From assembly GCA_020722185.1 (NCBI GenBank), contig DYLH01000001.1, positions 1 through 56,315 of the forward strand: 56,315 nt of DNA, written 5' to 3'. This DNA comes from Candidatus Avelusimicrobium gallicola (lineage in GTDB: Bacteria > Elusimicrobiota > Elusimicrobia > Elusimicrobiales > UBA9959). The notes below the pieces were generated by a model. It saw only the letters and a list, made by a program, of their open reading frames with translations. It was not told the origin of the DNA and did no database searches. The number at the start of each line of letters is the position of its first letter. The first letter of the stretch is position 1. Shown one piece after another: positions 21,242 through 49,987 of this stretch. The translations under genes and the position numbers were made by a program.

Positions 21242-21280
21242 ATAAGGTGAGCGCGAAGGCGTTTTATTTTTTGTTTTGCC

Positions 21281-21301
21281 ATCGGATGAAAAATATCCGA
21301 T
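21281..21301. promoter_or_regulatory. Perfect 7-7-7 inverted repeat, possible operator
   Basis: ATCGGAT at 21281-21287 and ATCCGAT at 21295-21301 form a perfect dyad around a seven-base A-rich spacer. It lies about 35 bases downstream of the likely transcription start and just before the probable ATG of the Rrf2-type gene. It could be the repressor's own operator or an mRNA hairpin near the start. Binding is not demonstrated. Confidence 0.4.
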
Positions 21302-21314
21302 GATGAGAAATACT

Positions 21315-21734
21315 ATGAAACTAAACAGAACCCTTGCTTATGGGCTGGCGTGTTTGCATTATCTTGGAGAGAAAAGAAGTCGAGAATGGACAGAGATAAA
21401 GGATATATCCAAATTTCAAGGTTTGCCTTTGGCATATTGCAATAAGGTGATGCAGGCTCTTGTTCATTCTGGTTTTATCGAGTCCAGAAAAGGAAAAGGT
21501 TATAGATTGATGAAAGATCTTGACGATATAAGTGTGTGGCAGCTGATGGAGGCTTTTACATTTAACGGCGCGCCAGAAAGCGGGAAGAAAGAGCTTTCTA
21601 TAAGGCTTTACTCAACTCTGGAAAAACAGGTTAATAAGTGGTTAATAGGCCTTACTGTCAGGGATATAATAGAGACAATGAAAGAAGATGAGAAAAGAAA
21701 AAGAGAAGAGGGGAAATTAGAAAGTAGAGAATAG
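21315..21734 (+). CDS. Rrf2-family transcriptional regulator
   Basis: Winged helix-turn-helix regulator of 139 residues from ATG 21315. The N-terminus MKLNRTLAYGLACLHYLGE, the LPLAYCNKVMQALVHSGFIESRKGKGYRL recognition/wing region and the following DDISVWQLMEAF match the Rrf2 layout (IscR, NsrR, CymR). Earlier in-frame starts exist (TTG 21276, ATG 21300 and 21303); 21315 matches the family N-terminus. The only cysteines are in the N-terminal half, and the loop after the wing lacks the three Cys that hold the Fe-S cluster in IscR/NsrR, so it is probably a cluster-less type. The C-terminus is a charged helix. It lies about 100 bases upstream of the giant gene in the same direction and may control it. 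Confidence 0.85.
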   Translation: MKLNRTLAYGLACLHYLGEKRSREWTEIKDISKFQGLPLAYCNKVMQALVHSGFIESRKGKGYRLMKDLDDISVWQLMEAFTFNGAPESGKKELSIRLYSTLEKQVNKWLIGLTVRDIIETMKEDEKRKREEGKLESRE

Positions 21735-21832: not shown

Positions 21833-24800
21833 ATGAAAGAAACTGAATTTAGAAAAAATGTAGTTGCGGGCTTTTGGTCCGCTTTTAAAGTGCGCCAAGG
21901 GCAAGCGCGCCAAGGGCGTGCAGCTACTACATTTTTATTTTTTATTTTTTATCTCTTAGTTTCCAATGCTTTTGCTGAACCTAGGATTAAAACAGTTGAA
22001 TATAACTTTGGTGGATATTATTCTGCAACTGATCTGGCTTCAAACTCGCAGTATAATTTTCCAACCAGAACTATAAAACTTCCTGAGAAGAAAAAAGAGA
22101 TAATAAGCGCCTGGCTTGAGTATGAAGGACTTGCTCGTTCAAACATTAATGTAAATCCAATCAGAATTTACTTTAATGCCGGGACCTCTGCTTCTACTAT
22201 CAGATTTCAGAGCTCTCAATACACCTCTCAAACGGGTGAGTCAATAAGACTTTTTGCCAGAGCTGATGTCACATCTGTTATATCAGCAGAGCTCGCTTCG
22301 CTTGAAACAGGAAGACAATTTACTGCTGGCGTAAGGATAACTGGTCCTACTTCAAATATGCATACAATGAAGCTCTATATAACTTATGAATACGATGATG
22401 CTTCATCTATACAGGTTAAAACTGTGCGTTTCCCGCTTTATTCAGATTATACAGAGAAAATAGCAGCTTTCACTGGACAGCATCCAGCAGGGACGGCCCT
22501 GATGCAGTATCAGGCAGATTTGCCAGATATGCGGTCAATACAGCAGCAATGGTTTGAAATTAAAGGTTTCAGGCAAAATACCACTGGAGACGGTTCTGTT
22601 TATGTAAACATAAATGGCGGGGCAAATGAACCGATACAAAATCATGATGATTCTTTAAACGATTCTTATTACTGGAAATATCTTTCTTCTTCAGGAATAG
22701 TTCAGGGGTTTTCAACAGGGACTTTACAGACAGCAAATATTGTAACGACAGTTGAGCCGAATAATCTTTTAAGCGGAGAGGTTGTGATAACTTATGAGGC
22801 TGATGCCTCCGCCTCAAGTAAAATACAAACAGTTAGATATTTTTTAGGTCAGGGGGAACTGGCAAATTCAACAACTTATTTTCAGATGCCTTTGTTTTTA
22901 AGAGAAGAAGGAATAAGTTTGAAAGAAGTTTATTTGAGAATAACTGGAAGTTTTGATTCATCCAGAGCTGACAGCTTGCCTATTGATTCAAAGATAGGTT
23001 CTACATTACTTTCGCAAAGGCTTTATTCTATACAGTCAGTTGCGGCGCAGATCTCAGGATATGAATTTTTTCATTCCTTGACTGGCGCAATTAGTGGTTG
23101 GATTGGAAACGGTACAGTTATTGGTTCAACAATAGCCGCTGTTTCAAATGCCGGTGGGGCTACTGGCGCTCACGGCGCAGAAATGATAGTTACGTATCAA
23201 TATAGCAATGATGCGGCTCATACCACAAATTATGGTGTTTTTAGTGGGAATTCAGCATCTGGAACCACAAAGCCATATTCTTATACATCCAATGTCTATT
23301 GGGTTGAGAGTGGGAGTTCAAAGACATTGACAGGATCATATGTCTATTCAAACACTATAAATAATGTCAACAGTCAGGATTTTAGCACTACAATTAGTTT
23401 TAATGGAAATAATGCCAGAACAGTCTCAAATAGGACAATTGCCGAAGCAACTACGGTCTCAAGATTTTACCAGAATCTTTCTCAGGTTTTTATCGGAAAT
23501 ACTTCCTTCACATCCAATTACACAATAAGCACGACACGTGGGGCCTTCGGCGGCCAAAGCTATATAAGCTACTTGTATGTTCCTCCGCCAAAAGAAACAC
23601 TGAGTTTAAATCAGAAAAAAACAGATGATACAATAATTTCACCAAACACTTACACAAATCAAGATACAGTAAAATTTGAAGCAATCGTTTCAAGTTCAAT
23701 GACTGCTGATAATTTGGCTCTTGTTGTAGAAGTAAAACCAAATGCTTCCGCTTTTAATGGACTGAATTTAACTACTGGAACTATTTCTGCCTACAATAAT
23801 AGTCCAATCACAGTAAGTGTAAGCTCATCCGGGCTTATTTCAGGGACTCTTTACAAATGGCGGGCAAGGGTTTTGGGAGATGGTGGCACAAGTGCGTGGA
23901 TAAATTTCACCGCTCCTTCTTTTGGCGTAGACTTATCAACTCCGCCAGCTCCAGCTATGGCAAATATTACTCCACAGGATGACGAAAACCTAAATTATGG
24001 CAGTGTTTCATTTGATTTTGAGGATGTAACTGATTCTGGCGGTTCAGGGCTTAAAAATTACGAAGTTCAAGTTGCAACTTCTTCTGATTTTACAGCAATA
24101 ACTTTTAGTTCTCAACCTGTTGCTTCTTTAGCTTCTTCAACTTTTTCTGAAAATTACTATTACTGGAGGGTGCGTTCTTATGATAATGCAGGTAATATAA
24201 GTGTTTGGTCATCTACGAGAAGTTTCAGGATAGATTTGAGCTCGCCGATAATTACAGACAATCAGTTGGGGGATAATGTCTGGAGAAAAGAAAACAATGC
24301 CGTTTATGACATTGATTTTGCAGATACTGGTGGTTCTCTATTAAAACAAGTTGAAGTTAAGATAACTTCTGGACCAAATCAGAGCGGGACAGTATTCGCA
24401 GATTGGACACCTGTTTTGACAAATATAAATTCCGGTACCTACACAAATAATTGGCCACTTCCTGCTGGCGTTTGGGATTTAATTCAAAGTTGGACAACCA
24501 ATTATGTCTCCATCAAAGTTATAGACTATTCCACAAATACCAAAGTATTAAATGATGCATTTTATATTCTAAAAGATACGCAGTCGCCAACATTCACAAA
24601 TGCGGAATTTGGTGGGGATTTGATTTGGAGAAAGACAGGCAGGGATTATAATGTGGATTTTATGGATATTTTTTCAAAGTTAGGAGGGGCTAAATATGAA
24701 GCATGGACTGGAATTGGTAAAACAGGAACTCAGAAAATCCCCTTAACTTCAATTGCAGGTGTTTCGGGGTCATCTTTTGTAACTGACTGGCCTGTGGATT

Positions 24801-39800: not shown

Positions 39801-42800
39801 CAATTGACAATCAGACAGGTGACGATGTGTGGAGAAATACAGCTGGAACTTCCTACGATGTAGACTTCTTTGATGATTTATCTAAGCTTGCTACTGCTCA
39901 ATATAAAGTGACATCTGCTATAAATCAGGGTGGCAATTTGATAATTGATTGGACAGATATTTTTGCTGGAGTAAATACTTCTTCCCAGACTGCCGACTGG
40001 GCTCTGTCATCTGCGCTTTGGTCATCATTGCCTGAAGGCCAGTCTTATGTCTCTGTAAGAGTTTACGATGTGGCTGGATCTTCAACTACTGCGGATGATG
40101 TTTTCTATATAAAGAAAGACACTACATCTCCAGACGGTATAAGTCTTGTTTCTCCCGCTAATGAAGAGAAACTTTCCACATCCTTGATTTTATTTGATTG
40201 GACTGATTCTTCTGATTTAACTTCTGGGATTTCAAACTATGAACTGGAAATTTCAACAGAAATAGATTTCTCGATTGTAAATTATTCTTCTAATCCCACA
40301 AATAGTCAGTCAAGTTTAAGCATTTTAGATGGCAAGTATTACTGGCGAGTTAGAGCTAAAGACAATGCGGGCAATTATTCAGCCTTTACTTCGACAAGGT
40401 CTTTTTACATTGATACATCAAGTCCAATCATAGTAAACAATCAAATTTCTCCAACTGACTGGTATTCATCAGATCCCGGTTCTGTTTTTAATATAGACTT
40501 TCAAGATTTAGACACTGGTGTGACCACTGCGCAATATAAAATTCATTCAGCATCTGGGGAGAGTGGAATTCTAATAAAAGACTGGACAGATATTTTTACT
40601 AATATAAGTTCTTCTTCCTACACAGATAACTGGGCATTAATATCTGGCGATTGGGCGCTTTTGAGCGAAGGCCAAAATTATGTCTCAGTCAGAGTTTTCA
40701 ATACTGTAGGACTTTCCTCAACTTCTATCGACGCCTTTATTTTGAGAAAGGATACAAGCGCGCCTTCCGTTATAGACAATCAGTCTGGTGATGATGTATG
40801 GCGAAATGCGGCCGGAACACTTTACAATGTTGACTTTGAGGATTTAGGTTCAGGTTTTGCCACTGCGCAATACAGAATAACAGATGCAATTGGCGGAGTG
40901 GGAACAGTATTAAAAGACTGGACTGATATAGTTAGCGCCACACAAACAGCTCTATATTCGGCAGATTGGCAAATTGACTTCTTCGCTTTACAAGAATCGG
41001 CAACAAACTATATTTCAGTAAGGGCTTACGATTCTTTGGGTATCTCAACAATGGTTTATGATGTTTTTTATGTTCTAAAAGATATAACAAATCCCACAAT
41101 AGCTGACAATCAGTCAGACGACACAGTTTGGCGAAATTCAGATCCCGGAGCTATTTATGATATTGACTTTGGCGATCTTGGCGGAAGCAAGCTTAATAAA
41201 TTCCAGATCAAGATAACTACTGGTCAAAATGAGACAGGGGCAATTGTTTCTGATTGGACTGATAAGGTATTGGCAATAAATGCCACTTATTACAATCAAA
41301 ATTTTGGCCTTGATTTTAATACACTTAATGAAGGCTTAAATTATGTTTCAGTAAGGGTATTTGATTATGCCCAAAACACTGCACAGATCATTGACGCTTT
41401 TTCAGTAAGAAAAGATACAATGCCGCCGACAATAGTGGACAATCAGTCGGGCGATGATACTTGGCGCGGCACAAATAATGGTTTATATGATGTGGATTTT
41501 GCTGACAGCGGCAATTCATTGCTTTCAAAGTTTCAATTGAAAGCCACAACCGGTCCAAATCAGAGCGGAGTTCTTGTTTTTGACTGGACAGATAATATCA
41601 CAAACATAAGTTCAAGTTCATATAATGATAACTGGTCTCTATCTTCTGCTCTGTGGAATTTGCTCCCAAGTGGAACTTCTTACATATCTGTCAAAGCCTT
41701 TGATGTGGCAGGTTCCTCTAGCGCATTGATTGATGCCTTCTATATTTTGAAAGACACTCAAACTGTGAGTATAACCGACAATCAGTCTGGCGACTATATG
41801 TGGAGAAGCGCAAATACAGGGTTTTATGATATAGATTTCTCTGCCAATGGAAATTCATTGATAGATAGAGTTGAAGTCAGGGCTTCAACTATGCCTCTGG
41901 CCATAGGTCCATTCTTGACAGATTGGACTATAGCCCTTGCAGGCATAAGCTCTACTGCATATACCAATAACTGGCAGTTGCCTCAAAGTGTTTTTGATTC
42001 TTTATTATCTGGAGTAAGCAATTATATCTCAGTTAAAGGTGTAAATCAGGCGGGAGGTTATGCCATACTAAATGACGCTTTCATAGTTTTGAAAGATACA
42101 GTGGTTCCATCTGTGATGAATAATATCTCCGGCGGAGATTTAATGTGGAGAAATTCATCAGGGACTGTTTACAATGTGGATTTCAATGATGCCGGCGGGT
42201 CTATGCTTTCAGGCTTTGAAGTCAGAGCTTCAACTGTGGCTGGCGGATATGGAACTTTATTGTTTGATTGGACGCTTGTAATTTCAACTCCTATCTCAGT
42301 TTCCTCTTATTCCAATGACTGGGCTTTGCCTCAAGGAAAATTTGAGATTTTAATGGAAAATGTGACAAATTACATTTCAATTAAAGTCTATGATGTGGCT
42401 GGAAATACCACAACAATTGCTGACGCTTTCTTTGTCTTGAAAGATACCACTGCCCCAAGCATAGTGGATAATCAAGCCGGAGACGATATCTGGAGAAATC
42501 TCAATACTGGCATGTACAATATAGACTTTCAGGACATTGGTGGATCCTTAATTTCCAGATTCCAGATTAGAGCCTCAACAAATTCTGGAACAGTTGGTCC
42601 CTTTATCCCAGACTGGACGGATAATATTGTAAATATAAATTCATCTTCTTATTCTGATCTCTGGCCTATCACATCCAGCATTTGGTCTCTGCTTCTCAAT
42701 GGAACCAATTATATATCTGTAAGGGTGTTTGACAATGCCGGAAATTTCACAACACTAGGCTACCAGCCATTTTATATCTTGAAAGATACAGCTCTCTCAA

Positions 42801-45800
42801 CCTTTGTAAACAATGAATCTGGTGGAGATTTGATATGGAGAAAAGAGGGGCGAAATTATGAAGTTTATTTCAATGATGAACACAGTGGACTTGAAAAAGT
42901 TCAATATAGCGCAAGCACTAATTCAGCTTCAGGAGATGCCTCTCTCATTGATTGGACCGATATAGCTTTGCCTCAGGGCTCTACATACTATTACACACCA
43001 TGGTCTATTAATTTTGATGCTTTGAAAGAGGAAGTTACAAATTATATCTCAGTAAGAGCCATAGATGTGGCGGGTTCAACTACAACACTGATTGACGCTT
43101 TCTTTGTTTTGAAGGACACCACTCCACCAGTGATATTGGACAATCAAGTTGGGGAATTTGTTTGGAGAAATTCCTCTGGCACTTTCTACGATGTAGATTT
43201 TACAGATATTGGCGGAAGCAAACTTTCAAAATTTCAAATAAGAGCTTCCACTTCTTCTGGTGGAATTGCCCCTTATAGTCCAGATTGGACCGACAATATT
43301 TTGAACATTATTTCTCCATCCTATTCTGAGAACTGGGCTTTGTCATCTGATATTTGGCTATCACTCTCTGAAAGTGTTACAAATTACATATCCATTATGG
43401 TATATGATGTGGCCGGGAATACCACAACAATTATAGACGCATTTAATATACTTAAAGATACAACATTGCCGCATATAATTGACAATCAAATCGGCGATGA
43501 TATGTGGAGAAGTACAGGTGGAACTTTATACAATGTGGATTTTGAAGATTTTGGATCTAGGATTTCAAGCGCGGCATATCTTGCGTGGACAGGTCCCAAT
43601 AAAACAGGCGCGCAGGTAATAGTTTCATCTCAGATATTTACTTCAACTGGCGCCATCGCTTATACAGATGCATGGCCAATTGATTTTGACAATTTGGAAC
43701 AAGGATATAACTATATCTCGGTTATGGCATGGGATATAGCCGGGAATAACTCAGAATATACAGATGCCTTTTATGTCAAAAAAGATACTGCCGCGCCTAT
43801 AATAACCGATTTACAGCAGGGTGATACAACATGGTATAAATCAAATCCCGGGAATGCATTCAATGTGGATTTTGAAGATAATGGTATAGGAGTCTCAACT
43901 GCCACTTTTGAAGCCTGGACTGGGCCCAATAAAACAGGAATAAATGTGCTTATTTCAACATATATTTTCACAAATTCTCCAATTTATTCTTACACCAATG
44001 AATGGGGCCCGACTTTGGCTCAATGGGATTTACTTGTACAGGGGACAAATTATATATCAGTGACTGCCTATGATGATTTAGGGCACTCTTCAAGTGTTGA
44101 GGATGTATTTTATATATTGAAAGACACAATGCCGCCAGCTCAAATTTCGGATTTAACTGCTCAAACCCCAAATCTAGATATAGATGAAGGCAAGATTTAT
44201 ATTAAATGGACAGCTGTTGGAGATGATGGCTTATTGGGCAATGCAAGTTATTATATGATCCGCTATAGAACTGATGGAGATGTAATGGAAGCGAACTTTG
44301 ACGCCTCTTCTGTCTATATTTCAACTCTTGTTCCAAAATCTCCGGGCCTTTTAGAGGGTCTGATGATGAGTGGTTTCACAGCCGGAGCAACCTATTATAT
44401 TGCGATTAAAACGGTTGACAGAGCTGGGAATACGGCTATTTCAAATTCAACCTCAACTTATGCGGGTGTTGATAAAACCAATCCTTCCGCAATTTCAGAT
44501 TTATCAGCTCAGCAAGGTTCATTCGCAGGACAAATAGACCTTTCATGGACCGCTCCAGGTGAAGGCGTGGCAGGCATCGCTTCAAGTGGAACTGCTACAA
44601 GCTACATTGTAAAATATGCTCCATATCTCATAAATTCCGCAAATTTTGATTCCGCTTCAACTTATTCACAGACATGGGTTCCTAGCCAATATGGAACAAT
44701 TGAAAATCGTACCTTAGGAGGGCTCACTCCGGGAACGACTTACTCCATAGCGATAAAAGCTGTCGACGAAGCTGGCAATATCGGCCCTATCTCGAATATT
44801 GTAATTGGAACAGCTACCCCACTTGGGGCGGCAGATGGCTTGATCGCTTATGGTGTAATGTCTCCAGCAAATACTCTGCAATACAGGTTCTGGACCCCGC
44901 CAAATTGGAGCTCTGCAAGCAACTATTCTATTGGAACATCTACTGCCAGATGGGTGGTATTGAAATCTGCAGCCGTTGTGGCGAATCAAAAATTGGCAAC
45001 TATCTTGAACTCTGACAATACTATGAAAATATTGCTTTCTAAGGATGGGGGAAATTGGCATGATATTACTCCATCTCCCGCACCCGCCCCCGGTTCTTCT
45101 CTGTATAGAAAGTTTGATATGGCGGTAGAAAATTTAAGCGGCAGAATAATGGTTGCTTACTACAATGGTACTCCGGGCGCTATAAACTATGCTGTGTGGT
45201 CATCTACGGCTGTGGCATGGGTGGAAGGTCCTAAATCTTTAGCTATGGCTTCTCTGTCTGGAACAGTAAATTGGGTTAAGATGAAGTCTATGCCGGGCAC
45301 AAATAGAATTGCTCTGGTTGTTTTGGATTCAAATTCAGACATATCCGCAGTTATATGGGATGGTGCCTCATGGACTTCAAATTCAAATATGACTACAGCT
45401 GCGGCTATAGCCACCGAGGAATGCTTTGATGTGGCATGGGAAAGTTTAAGTGGCGATGCTATGGTTTTGTGGGGGCAGGGAACTGCCACAAATTACAAGA
45501 TATGGAATTCACTCAGTCAGTGGAGCGCAGCAATAGCTGGTCCAAACATAGGAGGAACGGCAAACTGGATTAGAATGGCGTCGGATCCGAATTCTGACAG
45601 AATAGGTTTTACTTCTATTGATAGTGGTTCAGATTGGAATGTCTCTGTATGGAATGGAAGCTCTTGGAGCGCTTTGCCGACAGAAGATGCTGCAATGCTT
45701 GGCAATGCTTCAAGACTTACTGATATAGCTTGGGAGTCAAGATCAGGGCAATTGCTTATTGTTGCTGTTGACAATACCACAACCGATAACTATTTTGATT

Positions 45801-48800
45801 GGATAATATGGGATCCTTCCGCCGGCTGGTCGCCTGCAAGCCCATCTGTCGCTGTCGGAAATACAAATACCACATGGGGCGGAGCATTGAGATGGCTCAA
45901 ACTTGTGCCCGATCCAAATACAGACAATATAACCGCTCTTGGTATAAGCGCGTCAAATGATTTGAGAAGCACAAACTGGAATGGCTCTAGCTGGGCTGCT
46001 TCTGGAGACAGTGTAAATTTCAATCACACTCTATATGGGACAGGTTATCTCTACGAATTTGCTGACATTGATTTTGACAGACATGACAATGAAGCGCCAA
46101 CTTTAAGCGATAATCAGACGGGAGATGATAACTGGATATCTGATCCAGTAGCGCTTTATAATATCGACGCGCAGGATAGCGGCGGATCAAAATTGGCATC
46201 TATTGAAACTAAGATATATACACTTTCCGGCGGAGGCGGAACTCTTGTTCAGGATTGGACTGCTCAGGTTATAGGGATAAACTCTGATATTTATACAAAT
46301 GACTGGCCAATAAAACAGGCAACTTTTGATATTATGCCTCAGGGGCAGAGCTATGTGTGGGTCAGGGCTAAGGATGGAGTGGGGAATGTCTCTGCCGTAA
46401 TAGCTGACGCTTTCTACATAAAGAAAGACACAAATGTCCCAACTATAATAAACAATCATCCTACCAATTTTGATCAATTGTGGAGAAATACTGACCCGGG
46501 CGCCATATACGATATTGATTTTATTAACAATGGTCTTTCACAGATTTCATCGATTACTTATAGCGCATGGACTGAGCCAAATCAAACAGGGACAAATACG
46601 ATAAATAATGCCATAATCTCTTCGGGAACTACTATTGGAAATTCATATACTGATAATTGGTCTGTTGATTTTGATCTACTTGGACATGGCACAAATTATA
46701 TCACTGTCAGTGTTTGGAATATGGCTGGTTTAAGTTCTACAACTGTTGATGCGTTCAGGATTTTAAAAGATACTCAGGTTCCTTCAATTATAGGGGATTT
46801 GACAGCTTCTTCAGGCCCCACTAGAGGGAGCATAAAATTAGAGTGGACGGCTGCTGGAGATGATGGAATACTGAACAACAATACTCAAGGCGGTTATATT
46901 GTGAAATACGCAACTTACAATATAACGGAGGCATTGTTCAACTCTGCCAGCGCATATCCGCAGACATGGATACCTCAAAATGCAGGAGCGCTTGAATCAA
47001 AGGTGCTATATGGATTTGAAGTTGGAACTACTTATTATTTTGCTATAAAGACTTATGATAAGGCAAATAGCACATCCTCAATTTCTAATATAGCTTATAG
47101 CTTGCCACAAAGAGACAATGTCTACATAAATGAAATTTATGCTGGCGGGGGGGCTGGTTTGGACTGGGTCGAATTTTATAACAATACATCCAATAATTTC
47201 AGTTTAAGCGGCTGGAAAATTATTTATAAACAGGGAGCATTGGGTAGTGCGGCTGTCGAGGCGGAAATTTGGAGTGGAAATAGTGAAATTGTTGAGTCAA
47301 GTTCTGTGCTGAAAATTAACTTATCAAGCGATATAAATCCTGCGCTAAGCTATTCTCTTATCCTGAAAGATAATGCCGGCAATATTGTAGATAGCGTGCA
47401 ATGGCCTTCTATGACAAACTCTCAAAGTTTTGCCAGAATTTACGATGGTTCTCAGATTTTTGAAATAGACCCTACACCAACTGGCGGACTATTGAATTCA
47501 ATTTCCACCCACAGTGTTAAGTTGAGCGAGATTTCCTATAATGACTGGGAATTTGTCGAGCTTTATAATACTGGCGCTGATACAATTACTTTATCTGATT
47601 TCATTTTGAGAAATTCCTATGGCGAAAGCTTCAGATTCACAAGAAAAATATATCCAAGCAGTTATATTCTTATAGATAACTCGTCTATAAGCAATGATGC
47701 TTATAGTTGGTATAGCGCTTTTGGTATCAATGGCCTTAAATCCGAAGGTGATTATTTGGTATTGGAAGATTCTTCAGGACAGAGCATAGATAGAGTTATG
47801 TGGCAGAGTGGCTTGAATTATTCTGTTTATGACTATAGGGCAAATCTTGTTTCAGCCGCAAATTATGCTCCGTCCGTAGCTACGAGTATTATAAGAGGAT
47901 CTGGCGAAGGAGTGGACACAGATAATGACTCCGCGGATTTTGCCGCTTCTTCAATTATTACTCCTCTTAGCCGAAACACAAATTATGGTTTAGGCACAGC
48001 CAATACTCTGGTATATCCTTCAAGCAATTCTGTTTTGCCGGGCAATTTCTATATAAAAGTTCAGCCTGGTCAAGACTATTCAAGTGGAAACAATGATCTC
48101 ATCGCTTTCGTGAAGATTGGCGGAAATGAGGATACAAAATCTCCGCACATTTACAGATTGTCAGATATTGGATTTGACCTATCCTCGCTATCTATGCAAA
48201 CAACAGTTCATAGCCTGAATACTTTTACAGACATAGATGGCAATAAACTGATAGATGGGTCAATTTATAAAGTCATTTTAACCGCTGATACTGATTCCAC
48301 CTGCTCAGGTCAAATAATTGTAAGTTCAGTCACAGCTGATTTTTCAATTCACAGCGCAAATGTTTATGATTCTTCCAATACTTGGCTTAATGAAAACTCA
48401 AGTGTGGATGCAGTAAAGCTTGAAATTCAAAACAATAGTCACAAATACAATATCGTCCTGTCTTCATTGACGGTGACAATACTCAAAGATAATGGGACTC
48501 CTATGAGCAATGCTGAGGCTAAAAGTATTTTTGAAAGTTTAATGGTTGTTAAAAATTCTGTTCTGGGTTCAACGCAGACATATGAGCCGGCTATAGACAC
48601 AGAGATAGTAGCTGAGCTGTCAAACCAGAATTTCAATATTGATTCCAGCGGGGCGCAAATCATTCCAATAGATATAAATAATCCTTCAGCTTCAGTTATC
48701 GCTCAAACTACTGGCTATTATTTTATGGTCTTTAAATCTTCTTACAATGCTTCTTTGCAAACTCCTCATACTTTTATGGCCAAAATAGACTTGCAAACTA

Positions 48801-49987
48801 TGAAGTTATCAGACGCTAATATTTATCTTGCCCAAGATTTTTCAGCTTCAGCTTTAGTTCAAACTTCCACTATCACGATTATTAAACCGGTTCAACCTCC
48901 AGCTGGCACCGCCTGGCCATATTCTACAGGAAACTTGTTCAATATACAGACTATGGCTGATATATATGTGGATTCTCTGCTTTCCCCAAGAGTTTATATA
49001 AGCGGCAATGACGGAAAATTGAGAGTGATAAACTATAATGGCACAGAAAGGTGGACTTTTGCCACATCTCCTATTTCTGCCATAAAAACAGCGCCATTAA
49101 TTGAGGAAACTGCTTCTGGCGTGTACATTTATTTCGCTACAGAAAATGGAGAAGTTTATAAACTTAAGGATGACGACATCAGCTATACTCAAGTGTGGAA
49201 GGTGTCTCTCAGTTCAGCGATTAAGGGGAATATAATAGACAATGAAACTGGTTTATATATGGGAACTGTGGACAATAAGATTCATTGCCTCAATAAGTCA
49301 GATGGGCTTAACTGTTCTGCTTGGACATATGATAGCGGCTTTGATGCTCCTATGAGCGGCACATTTTCAATAGATTGGAGAGTGGATGTAAACAGAGGCT
49401 GGATCGGCCTTGAAAATGGCAAAGTTATTTCTTTTAGATTAAGCGATGGCATTATACAAAACCAATTCATTACCGGTAGCCCGATATATGGTTCTCCTTA
49501 TGTAGATAGCGCTTATTCAAGCGCTAATAATAACCTTTACATAACTTCTTCAGATAGAAAATTGTATTCAAGAAATGCGGCAGAACTTACAACCTATCCA
49601 CCTTATTGGCAGGATTACACAGCGGTTTCAGAAATAAAAACCTCGCCATGGGTTACCCTTGACGCTGAACCCAATAAATATGTTTTCTTTGGTGATGAGA
49701 GCGGAAGATTATATAAGGTGAGCGCCACAAGTGGAACTTTGGCGGATCAGGGGTGGATCTATAATGCCAATGCCCCAATAAGCGTCTCGCCAATCGTATG
49801 GGATAAGGTGTACTTTGGCGCTGGAAACTGCATATATGCTTTAAATACTTTAACAGGCGCTATAGCCCCGGGTTATCCCGTGTGCGCTGGCGCCAGGATT
49901 AAAAATGATCTTGTTCTAGATGTTGATAATAATGTATTGGTCTTTTCAGCAGATGATGGGAAAACCTATATGGTGAGCGCACCATAG
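21833..49987 (+). CDS. Giant multi-domain surface protein (9384 residues)
   Basis: One uninterrupted frame of 28,155 bases, predicted mass near 1 MDa. A signal peptide ends at AFA/E (residues 48/49). Order thereafter: four related domains (about 49-586); an Ig-like link; array 1 of about 23 type-A modules with three type-B modules (about 700-3700); two FN3; propeller 1 (about 3918-4343); array 2 of about 24 A and four B modules (about 4343-7433); two FN3; propeller 2 (about 7663-8086); two A modules; one FN3; two lamin-tail-like domains (about 8429-8720); an unassigned region; a C-terminal PQQ-like propeller (about 9029-9384). Arrays appear cysteine-free and rich in Ser, Thr, Asn and Asp, as in extracellular adhesins. 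No membrane anchor, LPXTG or type-IX sorting domain is seen. ATG 21833 or GTG 21890 could be the start. Most likely an exported adhesin or surface fibre; ligand unknown. Confidence 0.93.
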   Translation: MKETEFRKNVVAGFWSAFKVRQGQARQGRAATTFLFFIFYLLVSNAFAEPRIKTVEYNFGGYYSATDLASNSQYNFPTRTIKLPEKKKEIISAWLEYEGLARSNINVNPIRIYFNAGTSASTIRFQSSQYTSQTGESIRLFARADVTSVISAELASLETGRQFTAGVRITGPTSNMHTMKLYITYEYDDASSIQVKTVRFPLYSDYTEKIAAFTGQHPAGTALMQYQADLPDMRSIQQQWFEIKGFRQNTTGDGSVYVNINGGANEPIQNHDDSLNDSYYWKYLSSSGIVQGFSTGTLQTANIVTTVEPNNLLSGEVVITYEADASASSKIQTVRYFLGQGELANSTTYFQMPLFLREEGISLKEVYLRITGSFDSSRADSLPIDSKIGSTLLSQRLYSIQSVAAQISGYEFFHSLTGAISGWIGNGTVIGSTIAAVSNAGGATGAHGAEMIVTYQYSNDAAHTTNYGVFSGNSASGTTKPYSYTSNVYWVESGSSKTLTGSYVYSNTINNVNSQDFSTTISFNGNNARTVSNRTIAEATTVSRFYQNLSQVFIGNTSFTSNYTISTTRGAFGGQSYISYLYVPPPKETLSLNQKKTDDTIISPNTYTNQDTVKFEAIVSSSMTADNLALVVEVKPNASAFNGLNLTTGTISAYNNSPITVSVSSSGLISGTLYKWRARVLGDGGTSAWINFTAPSFGVDLSTPPAPAMANITPQDDENLNYGSVSFDFEDVTDSGGSGLKNYEVQVATSSDFTAITFSSQPVASLASSTFSENYYYWRVRSYDNAGNISVWSSTRSFRIDLSSPIITDNQLGDNVWRKENNAVYDIDFADTGGSLLKQVEVKITSGPNQSGTVFADWTPVLTNINSGTYTNNWPLPAGVWDLIQSWTTNYVSIKVIDYSTNTKVLNDAFYILKDTQSPTFTNAEFGGDLIWRKTGRDYNVDFMDIFSKLGGAKYEAWTGIGKTGTQKIPLTSIAGVSGSSFVTDWPVDFASLAGDTTNYISIEIYDIAGNTTTIVDAFRVLKDTTSPSYVNWETGGDLVWRNTGRNYNVDFEDFASNLAGAEYEAWTGANKTGEQKIALTAIPGVSGNSFTSDWPVDFASLSGDATNYISIEFYDVSGNTTTISDAFFILKDTTSPSIVSLLSPLDGVKTNSQFWFFDWTNSSDTGGGISNYEMEIATSTDFTTIAYSSSPEVSHASFGLLAENTYYWRVRAKDIAGNFSYYSSTRTFTIDLTSPSIIDNQTGDNIWRNTNSGIYNVDFEDLGGGLLSKFQVKATTGPNQSGEIVVDWYDVATNINLQLYDSNWGIPAFVFDSIQSGVTAYVSVRAYDNVGNIGEQNDVFYILKDTVSIFIVDNQAGDDVWHKINPGSVYNVSFNDIGGSLIDTIEYSAWTGTNQTGLNTIPWTTISSGPANIQNFSSLWGVSDSSWTALSQGFNYISVRAWNIAGTTSTLNDVFYIKKDTTTPNVADNQSGDDVWRKSAGTLYNVDFNDTGGSLINGIEYAIYSNPGMSGTLRKDWTPIIQPPLGASSYTQDWSVDFTALSEGETTNYISVRVWDIAGSTTTIFDVFYINKDITLPSISDNQPGDDVWRSSSGTVYDVDFNDFGGSLLDYAEVKITTGTGQSGTLISDWTTFLSNISSTSYSQDWALSSSLWDALAGGINYISVRVYDKAGNTQTYGDIFYIKKDTVAPTIEDNQTGDAIWRASSGLYNVDFNDIGGSLLNKVQVKITTGLNQTGTLIVDWSDVLTGINSYSYSSDWAIPSSIWDLLPNGTSYISVRVYDNSGLSADKVDAFYVLKDTSVPVIIDNQIGDDTWRRFGGTLYDIDFVDNGAGLSGARYEAWTGSGKTGIQKIPPTEISGVSGTSFTTNWSIDFTLLEQGTNYISVEVYDKLGSTATLIDAFYVKKDNVSPTISDNQIGDYTWRNSSGTLYDVDFQDLTSLLATAQYTIYSAPSFGGNLIVAWSDISSNLNVSSYVDPWSLASNHWDLLPAGTSYVSVRVYDNSGNLSQINDVFFIQKDTQNPSVDLTLINSTSDINGAYYGPYALDPGSVFDVDFYDQGYSKIKNPQYAIYSGASLGGTQVKDWTNITLNAGSTYYTSNWRVDFSSLLKEPSTNYISVRVFDNAGNYSTIVDAFRIFRSSSNAPEVFDNQEGDDVWRNANSGFYDVDFSSNSDYQLDWFEAQAWSETGQLGDLIANWTTVQIELNTNNYTTNWQLPTSFFDSLREGRNYISVRVYDKATPHNVSSREEVFYVNKDTTAPSIPILSMPQGVNLNYPDIIFDWADSNALASGTSNYELLVATSNDFTTINYSSNPADSQSLNTFAENIYYWKVRAKDNAENFSQWTSTAWFRVDLTTPIITDSQGDATYYQTLNTGLYNVDFSDLGGSLLSKFQIKAMTGANQTGDLIFDWSDNTTNINSVSFSANWPIDSNLWNLLPNGTSYISIKILDYATNYASLIDAFTVLKDTVPPLIIDNQSGDELWRDSDPGAIYNVDFADDTSLLTTAQYKIHSFSQEGGALIKDWTNIFTDISSFTYTDPLALSSGDWAILPEGQSYVSVRAFDMADLSSSLIDAFYIRKDVSAPFISDNQAGDTLWQSSPGKNYDIDFYDTFSGLSAIQYQVSTQPAGASPITDWIDISVLTNYPTYYTDNWSVDFSTLAINATNYISVRVFDRLSHSATFYDVFYILKDVTPPSIADNQPGDDSWRNDNSALYDIDFNDIGGSLLNRVQVKITSGVAQSGTLIADWTDVLTGISTSPYTDDWSLTFDLWNLLPGGTSYVSVRVYDNAGNYGEISDAFYIKKDTIAPSILDNQNGDNIWRNSNNAFYDVDFNDNGGSLLDKVQVKITTGPNQTGTVVSDWTDVLTGINSYSYSGDWSLSSGLWDLLPSGTSYISIKVYDRAGSFASLTDAFYIQKDTIPPTYLANQTGDSLWRNSNSGLYDIDFNDSGGALLSKIQIKASTNTSELLPALFDWTDNITAINSFSYLSNWPLDSNLWNLLSSGTNYISVRIYDWAENYSQINNAFYILKDTQNPTALAISPTDAGALNFNVFYSSSDFGYSGVDYVKLYYTYNTASPHTWTQYGVNFTSSPIAFSAPQSGTIGFKVVAYDRAGNSDETDPPLTTSAPELTTIIDLSSPQIIDNQAGDDVWRKSAGTLYNIDFSASGSSLLDTAQYRVMSGSGQTGTIIKDWTTIFSSINASTYSNDWTIDFDALKSSFNYVSVRIWNNAGSTSTLTDAFYVKKDTQAPLTIDNQSDDIYRNSDLGAIYDVDFEDGLSLLSKVQYSISSASQSASGNIISWIDIASAISSNVYTNNWAIDFSTPALASGTTGYVSVRVYDLAGNISISTDVFSIFKDTVPPSIADNQSGDDNWRNVNTAIYNVDFNDNGGSLIEKVQVKITTGIAQSGSVIADWADVLTGINSPSYSDNWSLPSGLWNLLSGGTNYVSVRVYDKAGNSANLTDAFYILKDVNAPYILDNQSGDTVWRSSNNGIYDIDFQDLLSGVSSFDIKVTTGPGAVEIVRDWTNNLSNINSTSYNNNWSFSEDIWNSLIPGYNYISIRSSDIAGNISILNDAFYVKKDTTAPVIIDNQTGDFVWRSSFSGVYYDVDFTDDLSLLFKFQLRASTGPNGTGILAFDWTDNISNINSASYNDNWSLSSELWNLLPSGTSYISIRAFDNALASATIFDAFYVLKDTISPSTINDLSATNGSEGEINISFTAPYDSLSGNLSYIVKISSSVAIDSGNFDLAETYTQNWIPASGGSAENFVLTGLQPNTLYYVAIKTQDKAENISSISNTASATSGADTTPPADITDLTAFSGAFEGQIDLHWTAPGDNINVGTATVYQVRYRTDVPITDTTIWDYANVYSQNWTPLYAGETENKTISGLTPGTTYYWAIKTLDDVGNISGLSNSPSAVAQKAGAVGGVLLYGVNGGAGDVPHFRRWSPPNWGSEQTGIATDASDTALIRHVIVRASKHRNEKIAGMLSSDGVLQIQRYNGVTNTWTNEWSTATIGAANSAYRGFDIAYEQNSGRAMVLYSGTPAGTLYYNIWNGTSWTGAISLTTGTAYAALWVALAPKPNSDELMAAFSKATSRELYVIRWTSTTWRDGHQVISSVGSTVKQNFDIAWETNGGECLIIYTDNSTKGRAFTKKWNGSSWAAYTANNFAFGGGNGVPQWLRLVPNPNPESPYADYISACSVDNQSDWNCSIWNGSQWAYQQTEDPTVRNVANQARTIDAAWESNGNKLVVVTAETVNNIRYAVWNAGAWQTTLAAGPSLSGWSNDPNYIQMESDPNTNSIVLNASSASTDLRAANWNGSSFALGATHTTAISANAYQPFGFALHRHDTSPPTLTDNQSGDDTWRNLNTGVYDVDANDTGGSHLKEIQVKIYTGASQTGDLIADWATAVSTAGVDSYTDNWFVSYALWNLLPEGTNYVSLRAKDGAENISVNPIIDAFYIKKDTTSPAMVSLYLPTNNSYADTLTPYFDWSDSYDLTSGVSLYELQVSSDESFATLDYSYSGALSQSTATALSSGIYFWRVRTKDNAGNYSAYTSTYSFVIDTAAPTFVDNQIGDDVWRNTNNALYDVDFNESESLLDKVQVKINTGPNQTGTLLADWTDILTNINSASYANNWSLPSVLWDLLQDGTNYISIKAFDKAGNSNVLVDAFYIKKDITLPQITDNQLGDDNWRSSNDAFYDVDFIDSGGSLLNKFQVKITTGPNQSGTLIADWTDNVININSSAYTDSWSFPSSLWDLLPAGTSYSSVRVYDNAGNSKDLNDVFYIKKDTENPTIATNLYPPDGYYSNTSNQIFDWDDSFDGASGVYGYEIYISTLTDFSVITSSSLLTISQYQSNNLYSGTYYWHIRSIDKAGNYSFFTSTYTLYVDTASPSIVDNQTGDDVWRNSNPGAIYDVDFNDTGISLLDSIEYSVWTDLNFTGTNLISWTLITSSPAALSSFTDNWTVNFSLLSNGTNYVSVRVSDRAQNITTLSDAFYIRKDISSPTIIDNQPGDDVWRNSAGTLYNIDFSDIGGSKISKFQLKITGGAGQTGTVYSDWFDRIININADTYIGDFDLGISTWTLLPEGTSYISLKVFDNAGNFSELTDAFYLKKDTTTPTIIDNQSGDDIWRVSSGTFYNIDFLDTGGAKLDHFDIKITTGLNQTGTLIADWTTIVSGINSDSYTSDWSLSESMWNYLQTGYNYVSVRVFDKAGNTQSLIDAFYIKKSTIAPIIIDNQLGDDVWRNAAGTVYNVDFQDQGTSGLDTAQYKITTLPNQGGTVLKEWSTIASAINASAYSSDWQVDFASLLEGVTNYVSVRVWDIAGATTTLNDVFYILKDVTLPSISDNQTGDDIWRNSSGTLYNIDFSDLGGSLLNKVQVKITTGPNQTGTLVADWTDNITGMNSSSYSDNWPLSTALWPLLPEGQSYVSVKIYDNADNSQSLIDAFYIRKDTTSPSFVSLISPSNSQIKNVSNPLFDWSDSLDLMSSISGYEIEISTKEDFSTVEISSFVLTSQIQPNLALSTTYYWHVRAKDNAGNYSAFSSTYSVIIDTISPSIIDNQLGEYVWRNVNPGAIYDIDFNDNLTGLSQIEYSAWTGAGQTGNNVIDWTLISSGTLGLSYTQNFAINFDLLAAGTNYISVRSWDIAQTTNTLIDAFTVLKDTFAPTVSDNQLGDNIWRNSNSGLYDVDFQDNLSMLATAQYYISTQPNQGGTLIVDWTDIFSAINSPSYASNWAISYFDLMPEGTSYVSVKVWDNLGQTNVLQDVFYVLKDTTPPNVIDNQSDILLAGEQADVSNIDVDFNDNGGSLLGNIQYTAWTEPGRIGGEIIPWTNIASGINSNSYTMNWSINFAALPNLATSYISVRAYDNAGNSYFYNDVFWVYKRASAPAIIDNQSGDDVWRRINTGIYNVDFQSQSGANLDKFDIRAATDINGGFYSPDWTNVVSNINSTLYTADWSLPSSFFDLLAPGTNYISVRAYDLVPSSATLENAFYVLKDTIAPTTIDNQTGDDVWRNTAGTSYDVDFFDDLSKLATAQYKVTSAINQGGNLIIDWTDIFAGVNTSSQTADWALSSALWSSLPEGQSYVSVRVYDVAGSSTTADDVFYIKKDTTSPDGISLVSPANEEKLSTSLILFDWTDSSDLTSGISNYELEISTEIDFSIVNYSSNPTNSQSSLSILDGKYYWRVRAKDNAGNYSAFTSTRSFYIDTSSPIIVNNQISPTDWYSSDPGSVFNIDFQDLDTGVTTAQYKIHSASGESGILIKDWTDIFTNISSSSYTDNWALISGDWALLSEGQNYVSVRVFNTVGLSSTSIDAFILRKDTSAPSVIDNQSGDDVWRNAAGTLYNVDFEDLGSGFATAQYRITDAIGGVGTVLKDWTDIVSATQTALYSADWQIDFFALQESATNYISVRAYDSLGISTMVYDVFYVLKDITNPTIADNQSDDTVWRNSDPGAIYDIDFGDLGGSKLNKFQIKITTGQNETGAIVSDWTDKVLAINATYYNQNFGLDFNTLNEGLNYVSVRVFDYAQNTAQIIDAFSVRKDTMPPTIVDNQSGDDTWRGTNNGLYDVDFADSGNSLLSKFQLKATTGPNQSGVLVFDWTDNITNISSSSYNDNWSLSSALWNLLPSGTSYISVKAFDVAGSSSALIDAFYILKDTQTVSITDNQSGDYMWRSANTGFYDIDFSANGNSLIDRVEVRASTMPLAIGPFLTDWTIALAGISSTAYTNNWQLPQSVFDSLLSGVSNYISVKGVNQAGGYAILNDAFIVLKDTVVPSVMNNISGGDLMWRNSSGTVYNVDFNDAGGSMLSGFEVRASTVAGGYGTLLFDWTLVISTPISVSSYSNDWALPQGKFEILMENVTNYISIKVYDVAGNTTTIADAFFVLKDTTAPSIVDNQAGDDIWRNLNTGMYNIDFQDIGGSLISRFQIRASTNSGTVGPFIPDWTDNIVNINSSSYSDLWPITSSIWSLLLNGTNYISVRVFDNAGNFTTLGYQPFYILKDTALSTFVNNESGGDLIWRKEGRNYEVYFNDEHSGLEKVQYSASTNSASGDASLIDWTDIALPQGSTYYYTPWSINFDALKEEVTNYISVRAIDVAGSTTTLIDAFFVLKDTTPPVILDNQVGEFVWRNSSGTFYDVDFTDIGGSKLSKFQIRASTSSGGIAPYSPDWTDNILNIISPSYSENWALSSDIWLSLSESVTNYISIMVYDVAGNTTTIIDAFNILKDTTLPHIIDNQIGDDMWRSTGGTLYNVDFEDFGSRISSAAYLAWTGPNKTGAQVIVSSQIFTSTGAIAYTDAWPIDFDNLEQGYNYISVMAWDIAGNNSEYTDAFYVKKDTAAPIITDLQQGDTTWYKSNPGNAFNVDFEDNGIGVSTATFEAWTGPNKTGINVLISTYIFTNSPIYSYTNEWGPTLAQWDLLVQGTNYISVTAYDDLGHSSSVEDVFYILKDTMPPAQISDLTAQTPNLDIDEGKIYIKWTAVGDDGLLGNASYYMIRYRTDGDVMEANFDASSVYISTLVPKSPGLLEGLMMSGFTAGATYYIAIKTVDRAGNTAISNSTSTYAGVDKTNPSAISDLSAQQGSFAGQIDLSWTAPGEGVAGIASSGTATSYIVKYAPYLINSANFDSASTYSQTWVPSQYGTIENRTLGGLTPGTTYSIAIKAVDEAGNIGPISNIVIGTATPLGAADGLIAYGVMSPANTLQYRFWTPPNWSSASNYSIGTSTARWVVLKSAAVVANQKLATILNSDNTMKILLSKDGGNWHDITPSPAPAPGSSLYRKFDMAVENLSGRIMVAYYNGTPGAINYAVWSSTAVAWVEGPKSLAMASLSGTVNWVKMKSMPGTNRIALVVLDSNSDISAVIWDGASWTSNSNMTTAAAIATEECFDVAWESLSGDAMVLWGQGTATNYKIWNSLSQWSAAIAGPNIGGTANWIRMASDPNSDRIGFTSIDSGSDWNVSVWNGSSWSALPTEDAAMLGNASRLTDIAWESRSGQLLIVAVDNTTTDNYFDWIIWDPSAGWSPASPSVAVGNTNTTWGGALRWLKLVPDPNTDNITALGISASNDLRSTNWNGSSWAASGDSVNFNHTLYGTGYLYEFADIDFDRHDNEAPTLSDNQTGDDNWISDPVALYNIDAQDSGGSKLASIETKIYTLSGGGGTLVQDWTAQVIGINSDIYTNDWPIKQATFDIMPQGQSYVWVRAKDGVGNVSAVIADAFYIKKDTNVPTIINNHPTNFDQLWRNTDPGAIYDIDFINNGLSQISSITYSAWTEPNQTGTNTINNAIISSGTTIGNSYTDNWSVDFDLLGHGTNYITVSVWNMAGLSSTTVDAFRILKDTQVPSIIGDLTASSGPTRGSIKLEWTAAGDDGILNNNTQGGYIVKYATYNITEALFNSASAYPQTWIPQNAGALESKVLYGFEVGTTYYFAIKTYDKANSTSSISNIAYSLPQRDNVYINEIYAGGGAGLDWVEFYNNTSNNFSLSGWKIIYKQGALGSAAVEAEIWSGNSEIVESSSVLKINLSSDINPALSYSLILKDNAGNIVDSVQWPSMTNSQSFARIYDGSQIFEIDPTPTGGLLNSISTHSVKLSEISYNDWEFVELYNTGADTITLSDFILRNSYGESFRFTRKIYPSSYILIDNSSISNDAYSWYSAFGINGLKSEGDYLVLEDSSGQSIDRVMWQSGLNYSVYDYRANLVSAANYAPSVATSIIRGSGEGVDTDNDSADFAASSIITPLSRNTNYGLGTANTLVYPSSNSVLPGNFYIKVQPGQDYSSGNNDLIAFVKIGGNEDTKSPHIYRLSDIGFDLSSLSMQTTVHSLNTFTDIDGNKLIDGSIYKVILTADTDSTCSGQIIVSSVTADFSIHSANVYDSSNTWLNENSSVDAVKLEIQNNSHKYNIVLSSLTVTILKDNGTPMSNAEAKSIFESLMVVKNSVLGSTQTYEPAIDTEIVAELSNQNFNIDSSGAQIIPIDINNPSASVIAQTTGYYFMVFKSSYNASLQTPHTFMAKIDLQTMKLSDANIYLAQDFSASALVQTSTITIIKPVQPPAGTAWPYSTGNLFNIQTMADIYVDSLLSPRVYISGNDGKLRVINYNGTERWTFATSPISAIKTAPLIEETASGVYIYFATENGEVYKLKDDDISYTQVWKVSLSSAIKGNIIDNETGLYMGTVDNKIHCLNKSDGLNCSAWTYDSGFDAPMSGTFSIDWRVDVNRGWIGLENGKVISFRLSDGIIQNQFITGSPIYGSPYVDSAYSSANNNLYITSSDRKLYSRNAAELTTYPPYWQDYTAVSEIKTSPWVTLDAEPNKYVFFGDESGRLYKVSATSGTLADQGWIYNANAPISVSPIVWDKVYFGAGNCIYALNTLTGAIAPGYPVCAGARIKNDLVLDVDNNVLVFSADDGKTYMVSAP
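21860..21930 (+). repeat. REP-like palindromic element overlapping the giant gene's 5' end
   Basis: The element begins GTAGTTGC (21860-21867) and ends GCAGCTAC (21920-21927), imperfect terminal inverted repeats. Inside are a hairpin GCGGGC-TTTTG-GTCCGC (21866-21882) and a 15-base tandem pair GCGCCAAGGGCAAGC (21892-21906) / GCGCCAAGGGCGTGC (21907-21921). The tandem pair is translated as RQGQA-RQGRA just before the hydrophobic core of the signal peptide. Confidence 0.55.
21976..23590 (+). repeat. Four tandem N-terminal domains of the giant protein
   Basis: Four diverged copies of a domain of roughly 130-150 residues begin near 21976, 22405, 22816 and 23220. Copies 1-3 open with I-K/Q-T-V followed by an aromatic-rich strand, and each of the four ends in a related strand: YITYEYDDASS, VITYEADASASS, IVTYQYSNDAA, YISYLYVPPP. 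Shared end motifs and equal spacing suggest an old tandem duplication. The fold is unknown and probably all-beta. Confidence 0.6.
24247..32930 (+). repeat. Type-A module array 1 (about 23 copies, 3 type-B inserts)
   Basis: Each module is 108-115 residues (about 324-345 bases). The consensus by eye is D-N-Q-x-G-D-D-x-W-R at the start, Y-D/N-V-D-F and G-G-S-L-L in the first third, then T-G-x-N-Q-T/S-G, a D-W-T/S, a W, G-T-x-Y-V/I-S-V-R-V-Y-D, D-A/V-F-Y and finally K-D-T-T-x-P leading into the next DNQ. Type-B Ig/FN3-like modules with YYWRVRAKDNAGN signatures sit at about 23938, 25240 and 28605. Conserved acidic loops could bind calcium, an inference from pattern only. Confidence 0.9.
32910..33585 (+). 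other. Two FN3 domains in the giant protein
   Basis: Two fibronectin type III domains begin near 32910 (INDLSATNG...INISFTAP) and 33241 (ITDLTAFSG...IDLHWTAPGDN), each ending in a T-x-Y-Y-x-A-I-K-T segment. They separate array 1 from propeller 1. Confidence 0.8.
33585..34860 (+). other. Seven-bladed propeller-like domain 1
   Basis: About 425 residues with seven repeats ending in WNG-T/S-S-W or a variant. Blades alternate between a W-V/L-x-L-x-P-x-P-N type and an F-D-I-A-W/Y-E-x-x-S/N-G type. It is flanked by FN3 domains before and a type-A module after. It contains three cysteines in otherwise cysteine-poor surroundings. A carbohydrate- or protein-binding propeller is likely from the pattern; no catalytic motif is seen. 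Confidence 0.6.
34861..44130 (+). repeat. Type-A module array 2 (about 24 copies, 4 type-B inserts)
   Basis: Same modules as in array 1, from the copy following propeller 1 to the FN3 pair at 44131. Type-B modules lie near 35205, 36180, 38160 and 40130. Copies with an A-W-T-G-x-x-K/Q-T-G second half alternate with copies having V-K-I-T-T-G-P-N-Q-T-G, two recognisable subfamilies. No cysteine was seen in the array. Confidence 0.9.
44131..44820 (+). other. Second FN3 pair in the giant protein
   Basis: Two FN3 domains, beginning near 44131 (ISDLTAQTP...IKWTAVGDDG) and 44475 (ISDLSAQQG...IDLSWTAPGEG). The second ends GLTPGTTYSIAIK, paralleling GLTPGTTYYWAIK at the end of the first pair. They precede propeller 2. 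Confidence 0.8.
44820..46090 (+). other. Seven-bladed propeller-like domain 2
   Basis: Paralogue of propeller 1 with the same entry (LIAYGV, then FWTPPNW) and the same seven alternating blades ending WNGSSW-type. It has one cysteine (EECFDV). It ends with DRHDNEAPTLSDNQ, matching HRHDTSPPTLTDNQ after propeller 1. Confidence 0.6.
46090..47115 (+). repeat. Two further type-A modules and one FN3 domain
   Basis: Modules starting at DNQTGDDNW (46110 region) and NNHPTNFDQLWR (46448 region) are followed by an FN3 domain opening IGDLTASSGPTRGSIKLEWTA. The first module has DAQD where most have VDFxD, as does the module after propeller 1. Confidence 0.75.
47120..47990 (+). other. Two lamin-tail-like domains
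   Basis: Copy 1 shows VYINEIYAGGGAGLDWVEFYNNTSN with LSGWKI. Copy 2 shows VKLSEISYNDWEFVELYNTGAD with LSDFILRN. I-N-E-I, D-W-V-E-F/L-Y-N and L-S-x-W/F are the usual signatures of bacterial lamin tail (LTD) domains on exported proteins. Copy 2 is followed by a DTDNDSADF acidic stretch. An unassigned region (about 47990-48900) follows, with a possible calcium-loop-like DIDGNKLID. Confidence 0.65.
48900..49987 (+). other. C-terminal PQQ-like propeller of the giant protein
   Basis: About 355 residues of blade repeats such as RVYISGNDGKLRVINYNG, YIYFATENGEVYKL, GLYMGTVDNKIHCLN and KVYFGAGNCIYALNTLTG match PQQ-enzyme-like/outer-membrane-assembly-type propellers. The protein ends directly after the last blade. 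Confidence 0.75.

Follow-up and report, generated by a model that had tools for sequence, protein, structure and literature searches.

The window, by which we mean the whole stretch of DNA analysed here (56,315 nucleotides; positions 1 to 56,315 of the forward strand of contig DYLH01000001.1, assembly GCA_020722185.1, Candidatus Avelusimicrobium gallicola, phylum Elusimicrobiota), carries a giant gene followed on the same strand by genes for a partner protein and for an outer-membrane barrel; the partner ends in a C-terminal domain (CTD) of the type IX secretion system (T9SS). The giant gene is a single uninterrupted frame of 9,384 codons (21833-49987, + strand), as had been stated from the letters of the window and their open reading frames (ORFs) without database searches (hereafter the sequence-only reading); it has an ATG start and no internal stop. 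Its mature product has a mass of 1.02 MDa and a pI of 4.2 and is very acidic and Cys-poor. It comprises 57 immunoglobulin (Ig)-type units in three arrays (27 + 28 + 2), separated by two blocks and flanked by an N-terminal cap (N-cap) and a multidomain C-terminal region; features and coordinates are collected in Table 1.

The giant gene is real and conserved, and neither an assembly collapse nor an assembly expansion, because long DNA repeats are missing and independent assemblies carry orthologues, each whole on one contig, of 9,178 (G022), 9,418 (G023), 9,479 (G147), 9,460 (G087) and 8,832 aa (G086). No tandem DNA repeat was found in the array, and no exact DNA repeat of at least 30 bp within the ORF, so short reads can assemble it. 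The ratio of nonsynonymous to synonymous substitution rates (dN/dS) between the giant genes of G023 and G302 is 0.21 for the gene as a whole, and each of its ten blocks of 1,000 codons falls within 0.18-0.24; by this measure the giant is under purifying selection along its whole length. Some relatives are broken (an in-frame TAG in the copy of G303, a frame break in that of G012), as an assembly artefact or a decaying gene would have it; against this stand the missing long repeats, the purifying selection and the colinear independent assemblies, and such an explanation is hardly credible. The artefact in particular was rejected, and is largely refuted, on repeat scans, module colinearity and dN/dS. 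At the start of the gene, two 15-bp repeats (21888-21917) lie ahead of the hydrophobic core of the signal peptide, and the true start codon may be further downstream.

A profile hidden Markov model (HMM) built from the giant's own copies finds exactly 49 type-A modules (100-116 residues, 82-162 bits; mean pairwise identity 43%, range 29-72%), where the sequence-only reading had counted about 49, and no further copy elsewhere in the 1.6-Mb genome. The seven type-B units counted in that reading are also present (about 98 residues each; as a set they score as Pfam Ig_Rha78A_N), together with one odd unit of about 104 residues at residues 3032-3135. The type-A module had been suspected to belong to no named family, and at curated cut-offs none was obtained from Pfam, NCBIfam or PDB: among the 49 modules scanned singly against Pfam, none exceeds a gathering cut-off (best E 0.014, Big_13). 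The module is weakly similar, chiefly in its second half, to Big_13, Glucodextran_B, Big_3_2 and Ig_Rha78A_N, but single modules stay below the gathering cut-offs of Big_13 and Glucodextran_B. AlphaFold2, run on the 49-row alignment, predicts with confidence an Ig-like beta-sandwich with an all-strand core (predicted local distance difference test, pLDDT, 95.4); Foldseek gives a best match of E 3.6e-3 and template-modelling (TM) scores of up to 0.60, with weak PDB neighbours that include the Deinococcus HPI S-layer protein (TM 0.60). Conserved Asp positions are present, and the giant's nine Cys all lie outside the Ig units, in keeping with the earlier remark that the modules lack Cys.

Outside the arrays, a Sec signal peptide stands at the N-terminus, and a hydropathy scan shows no other hydrophobic segment. 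The N-cap gives a confident AlphaFold2 model over about 650 residues (pLDDT 88.6, predicted TM score 0.87); it has no Pfam match, no family from NCBIfam or PDB and no global structure match in PDB. The tryptophan-rich (W-rich) region of the two blocks has no sequence match in PDB and is probably a beta-propeller. In the C-terminal region the Pfam matches include LTD (77 bits, cut-off 34.3) and PQQ_2 (32.3 bits, cut-off 27.6). No hydrolase, peptidase, toxin or other catalytic domain was found in any scanned part of the giant, whose assigned domains all have structural or binding roles. An origin of array 2 by internal duplication of array 1 was weighed and not established.

Table 1 Features of the giant gene and its cassette, with positions in the window and the basis of each assignment
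Feature	Position	Strand	Basis
Rrf2-family regulator, 152 aa, without Fe-S cysteines	21276..21734	+	Pfam Rrf2, 65 bits, cut-off 30
Giant gene, 9,384 aa	21833..49987	+	ORF, HMM, dN/dS and repeat scans
Signal peptide, ending AFA/EP; only hydrophobic segment of the giant	21833..21976	+	sequence and Kyte-Doolittle scan; putative cleavage site
N-cap, residues 49-704, all-beta	21977..23944	+	14-row alignment, AlphaFold2
Array 1, residues 705-3694, 27 Ig-type units (23 A, 3 B, 1 odd)	23945..32914	+	own-copy HMM, unit strings
Block 1, residues 3695-4344, two FN3 and a W-rich repeat region of about 430 residues	32915..34864	+	FN3 over cut-off; two-copy and orthologue alignment
Array 2, residues 4345-7434, 28 Ig-type units (24 A, 4 B)	34865..44134	+	own-copy HMM, unit strings
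Block 2, residues 7435-8088, second FN3-FN3 and W-rich block	44135..46096	+	domain scan; two-copy and orthologue alignment
Array 3, residues 8089-8316, two A units	46097..46780	+	own-copy HMM
C-terminal region, residues 8317-9384 (1,068 residues), FN3, two lamin-tail domains, PQQ/BamB-like propeller at residues 9051-9330	46781..49984	+	Pfam
Partner protein, 1,047 aa, with signal peptide, PQQ propeller, FN3 domains, ZU5-like domain and T9SS type-A CTD (52895-53137)	50009..53152	+	domain scans; orthologues in 16 cassettes
PorV/PorQ-family outer-membrane barrel, 502 aa, putative dedicated shuttle/anchor	53238..54746	+	NF033709, 142 bits, cut-off 90

Orthologues were sought in a sample of 295 Elusimicrobiota genomes and defined by a match to the N-cap at E < 1e-100. 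The A module is present in 68 of these genomes, and N-cap orthologues in 21, from ten families and at least two classes; none was found in family f2, one member of which is a one-contig genome of 1,643,562 bases. Besides the orthologues listed above, two of 10,458 (G110) and 10,481 aa (G146) are whole on one contig, and so is that of G302, which is 9,564 aa as called, or about 9,410 aa if its start matches the other orthologues. In G303 (L146-L147) an otherwise full-length orthologue is divided into 6,956 and 2,457 aa by one in-frame TAG near position 26073 of the joined stretch. Named genomes were searched with a 10-row subset profile, as the full 49-row alignment lacks a sufficiently conserved stretch; the records with an A module are mostly 'Elusimicrobia' and 'Endomicrobia' metagenome-assembled genomes (MAGs). 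Some MAGs that bear the labels Omnitrophota and Caldiserica contain A modules as well (L058, L062, L068, L071, L099), through possible mislabelling or spread beyond the phylum. The giant of the window is nearer to that of another genus (63-71% identity) than to that of its own (51-52%), unlike its neighbouring genes, which are 52-86% identical to those of the same-genus genome (comparison of L032 and L033 of G011 with L039 and L040 of G001); transfer or uneven rates are possible.

The architecture is conserved to the level of unit counts. In four families the chain is unit-counted or nearly so, and runs from signal peptide and cap through 27 units, a block, 28 units, a block and two units to the FN3/lamin-tail/PQQ end; the counts 27/28/2 are kept across classes at 35-40% identity. 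Unit strings give 27 + 28 in the window, G023, G302, G147 and G087; each of these five has its single odd unit at array 1 position 22, and array 2 repeatedly shows B units at positions 2 and 17. Array 1 measures 2,974-3,005 residues in five genomes, array 2 3,071-3,146 residues in seven (at least four families, two classes) and array 3 220-241 residues in nine of nine. Within families the modules pair one-to-one in order (reciprocal best hits in 30/32, 28/32, 31/31 and 56/56 cases; at most 13-17 in shuffles). Between classes, one-to-one module orthology is at chance level in most pairs, and the claim of deep conservation therefore rests on unit counts, landmarks and lengths. With 22 + 28 units in G086, 31 + 34 in family f26 and a short form in G085 (L149-L150; 4,161 aa, one block rather than two), the rule is not universal; the short form may represent the ancestral state or have arisen by deletion. 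Copies are normally gained and lost fast in repeat arrays, and the conserved number and order of beads suggests that fibre length may be under selection. Of the sequence-only reading, the absence of a named family, the Ig-like fold and a secreted, Cys-poor long chain have stood, whereas it overlooked the N-cap, the FN3 and repeat blocks, the propeller at the C-terminal end, the partner genes linked to T9SS, the orthologues across the phylum and the constant unit count.

The order giant, CTD protein, PorV-family barrel on one strand, with gaps mostly below 150 bp, is found in 16 cassettes from two classes; 15 have all three genes, and G087 has no PorV of at least 120 aa. In class Elusimicrobia, each of the 11 cassettes read has an Rrf2 regulator immediately upstream of the giant, and these regulators lack the Fe-S cysteines (11-orthologue alignment). 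The CTD exceeds the cut-off in the partner of the window and in five of six distant partners tested, the sixth scoring 22.0 against a cut-off of 23. The barrel matches PorV in PDB (6h3i_F, E 3.9e-8), and PQQ/BamB-like propellers occur in both the giant and the partner.

The genome of the window (G000) encodes a SprA-like pore (TIGR04189, E 4.9e-33; profile against Flavobacterium johnsoniae SprA 6h3i_A, E 7e-30); Pfam SprA_N gives a weak match only, and SprA was established by TIGR04189 together with the profile against PDB. There are five PorV_fam matches and seven CTDs over cut-off, and at six of the nine CTD loci a PorV-family match follows about 90-200 bp downstream (contigs C11, C13, C15, C17, C34, C48). 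SprA-like pores (for example L110:8-5326, 1,773 aa) occur in 257 of the 295 genomes, the small-genome family f2 included, which points to a widespread T9SS in Elusimicrobiota. In sister genomes, shorter A-module proteins carry their own T9SS CTD over cut-off (five of five tested); the module therefore occurs on T9SS cargo. Large proteins of 1,325-3,681 aa in sister genomes combine a few A modules with a T9SS CTD (L034, L036, L037, L038, L136).

Because such proteins place the module on T9SS cargo, we favour the reading that the giant is a megadalton surface fibre of counted units, about 250 nm long, and is probably held at the outer membrane by the pair of CTD protein and PorV-family barrel. 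Sec would export the giant to the periplasm; the partner would cross the SprA pore by way of its type-A CTD, and its own PorV-family shuttle would take it up, remain bound and anchor it. The CTD-less giant would leave with or through the partner and would probably be attached by its C-terminal propeller end. At about 4 nm per Ig unit, a rule of thumb from which the figure of 250 nm derives, the 57 units would place the N-cap some 250 nm away from the cell, and the two W-rich blocks would sit along the fibre as beads at set distances; the chain is thus long enough for the arrays to exceed 100 nm, as had been estimated. The fibre would most likely serve, outside animal guts, in adhesion to cells, surfaces or polymers; the scanned parts contain no catalytic domain. 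A fuller proposal, that T9SS exports or displays the CTD-less fibre in trans through a CTD partner with a dedicated PorV-family shuttle, and that length is selected as the Ig-unit count (27 + 28 + 2), a ruler predating the class split of Elusimicrobiota, is put forward as a tentative possibility.

Several results weigh against the favoured reading. The last 1,068 residues of the giant match neither TIGR04183 nor TIGR04131 (NCBIfam), no feature examined explains how the giant itself crosses the outer membrane, which is the weakest step, and we know of no T9SS cargo of such size that is exported in trans. Against an equivalog cut-off of 200 (TIGR04189) the SprA-like protein reaches 113, and no PorU catalytic part was found in the genome (92% complete), which gave only CTD-region matches to the PorU model. 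Pfam, NCBIfam and PDB name no ligand-binding domain in the N-cap, and the short form in G085 means that the long form is not essential everywhere.

The giant could instead be a long periplasmic scaffold or tether, with only the CTD protein exported and the shared PQQ/BamB-like propellers marking a role at the outer membrane. It does lack a CTD and has a signal peptide only, and both proteins carry such propellers; however, A modules of sister genomes sit in T9SS CTD proteins, Ig/FN3/lamin-tail arrays of such kind are typical of extracellular proteins, and a chain of about 250 nm would need coiling in the periplasm. This we consider unlikely. A predatory, cell-wall-degrading giant, as proposed for Omnitrophota and relatives, follows a suggestion published for giant genes of phyla related to Planctomycetes, Verrucomicrobia and Chlamydiae (as cited in PMC12057145); with no hydrolase, peptidase or toxin domain in the scanned parts and assigned domains that are structural or binding, it is quite improbable here.

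A third alternative comes from SprB of Flavobacterium, a gliding adhesin of 669 kDa and about 200 nm with the shuttle SprF (PMC9143113, PMC12635249). SprB shares with the giant the logic of a very large, repetitive, T9SS-linked surface protein encoded beside a FadL-family barrel, and the T9SS motor might likewise drive the giant along the cell by way of the barrel partner. SprB, however, bears a type-B CTD itself and is paired with a PorP-like shuttle, whereas here a separate type-A CTD protein stands between a CTD-less giant without TIGR04131 and a barrel of the PorV, not the PorP/SprF, family; the GldM model (for the PorL/PorM motor) gave no match anywhere, controls included, in a search thus without a positive control. 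We consider a gliding adhesin improbable. SiiE of Salmonella, with 53 Ig domains (PMC5466336), and the RTX adhesins resemble the giant in having about 50 tandem bacterial Ig domains that form a long rod (PMC5466336, PMC7493085), but are type I secretion substrates, and the modules of the giant are another family; the giant contains a single GGxGxD motif and no RTX repeats, and no type I secretion gene was found among the neighbours scanned. By analogy, the surface fibre favoured here may work like SprB or SiiE, being a member of neither family because it lacks a CTD and RTX repeats.

Giant genes in uncultured phyla had been mentioned in the sequence-only reading, and earlier work had recorded the abundance in this phylum of proteins over 5,000 aa (PMC11573180; again PMC12057145, with Omnitrophota). 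In the literature searched, with preprints and most subscription journals outside its scope, the module, the cassette and the conserved unit count are nowhere described. In F. johnsoniae one PorV is common to all type-A CTDs, and it is type-B cargo that has dedicated shuttles (PMC12618676); type-A CTD proteins with their own PorV-family shuttles would be a design unlike that single shared PorV. The T9SS that appears widespread in Elusimicrobiota would concern a phylum unmentioned in a T9SS review (PMC11205867). With about 57 units kept in number and order between classes at so low an identity, length as a selected trait becomes directly testable.
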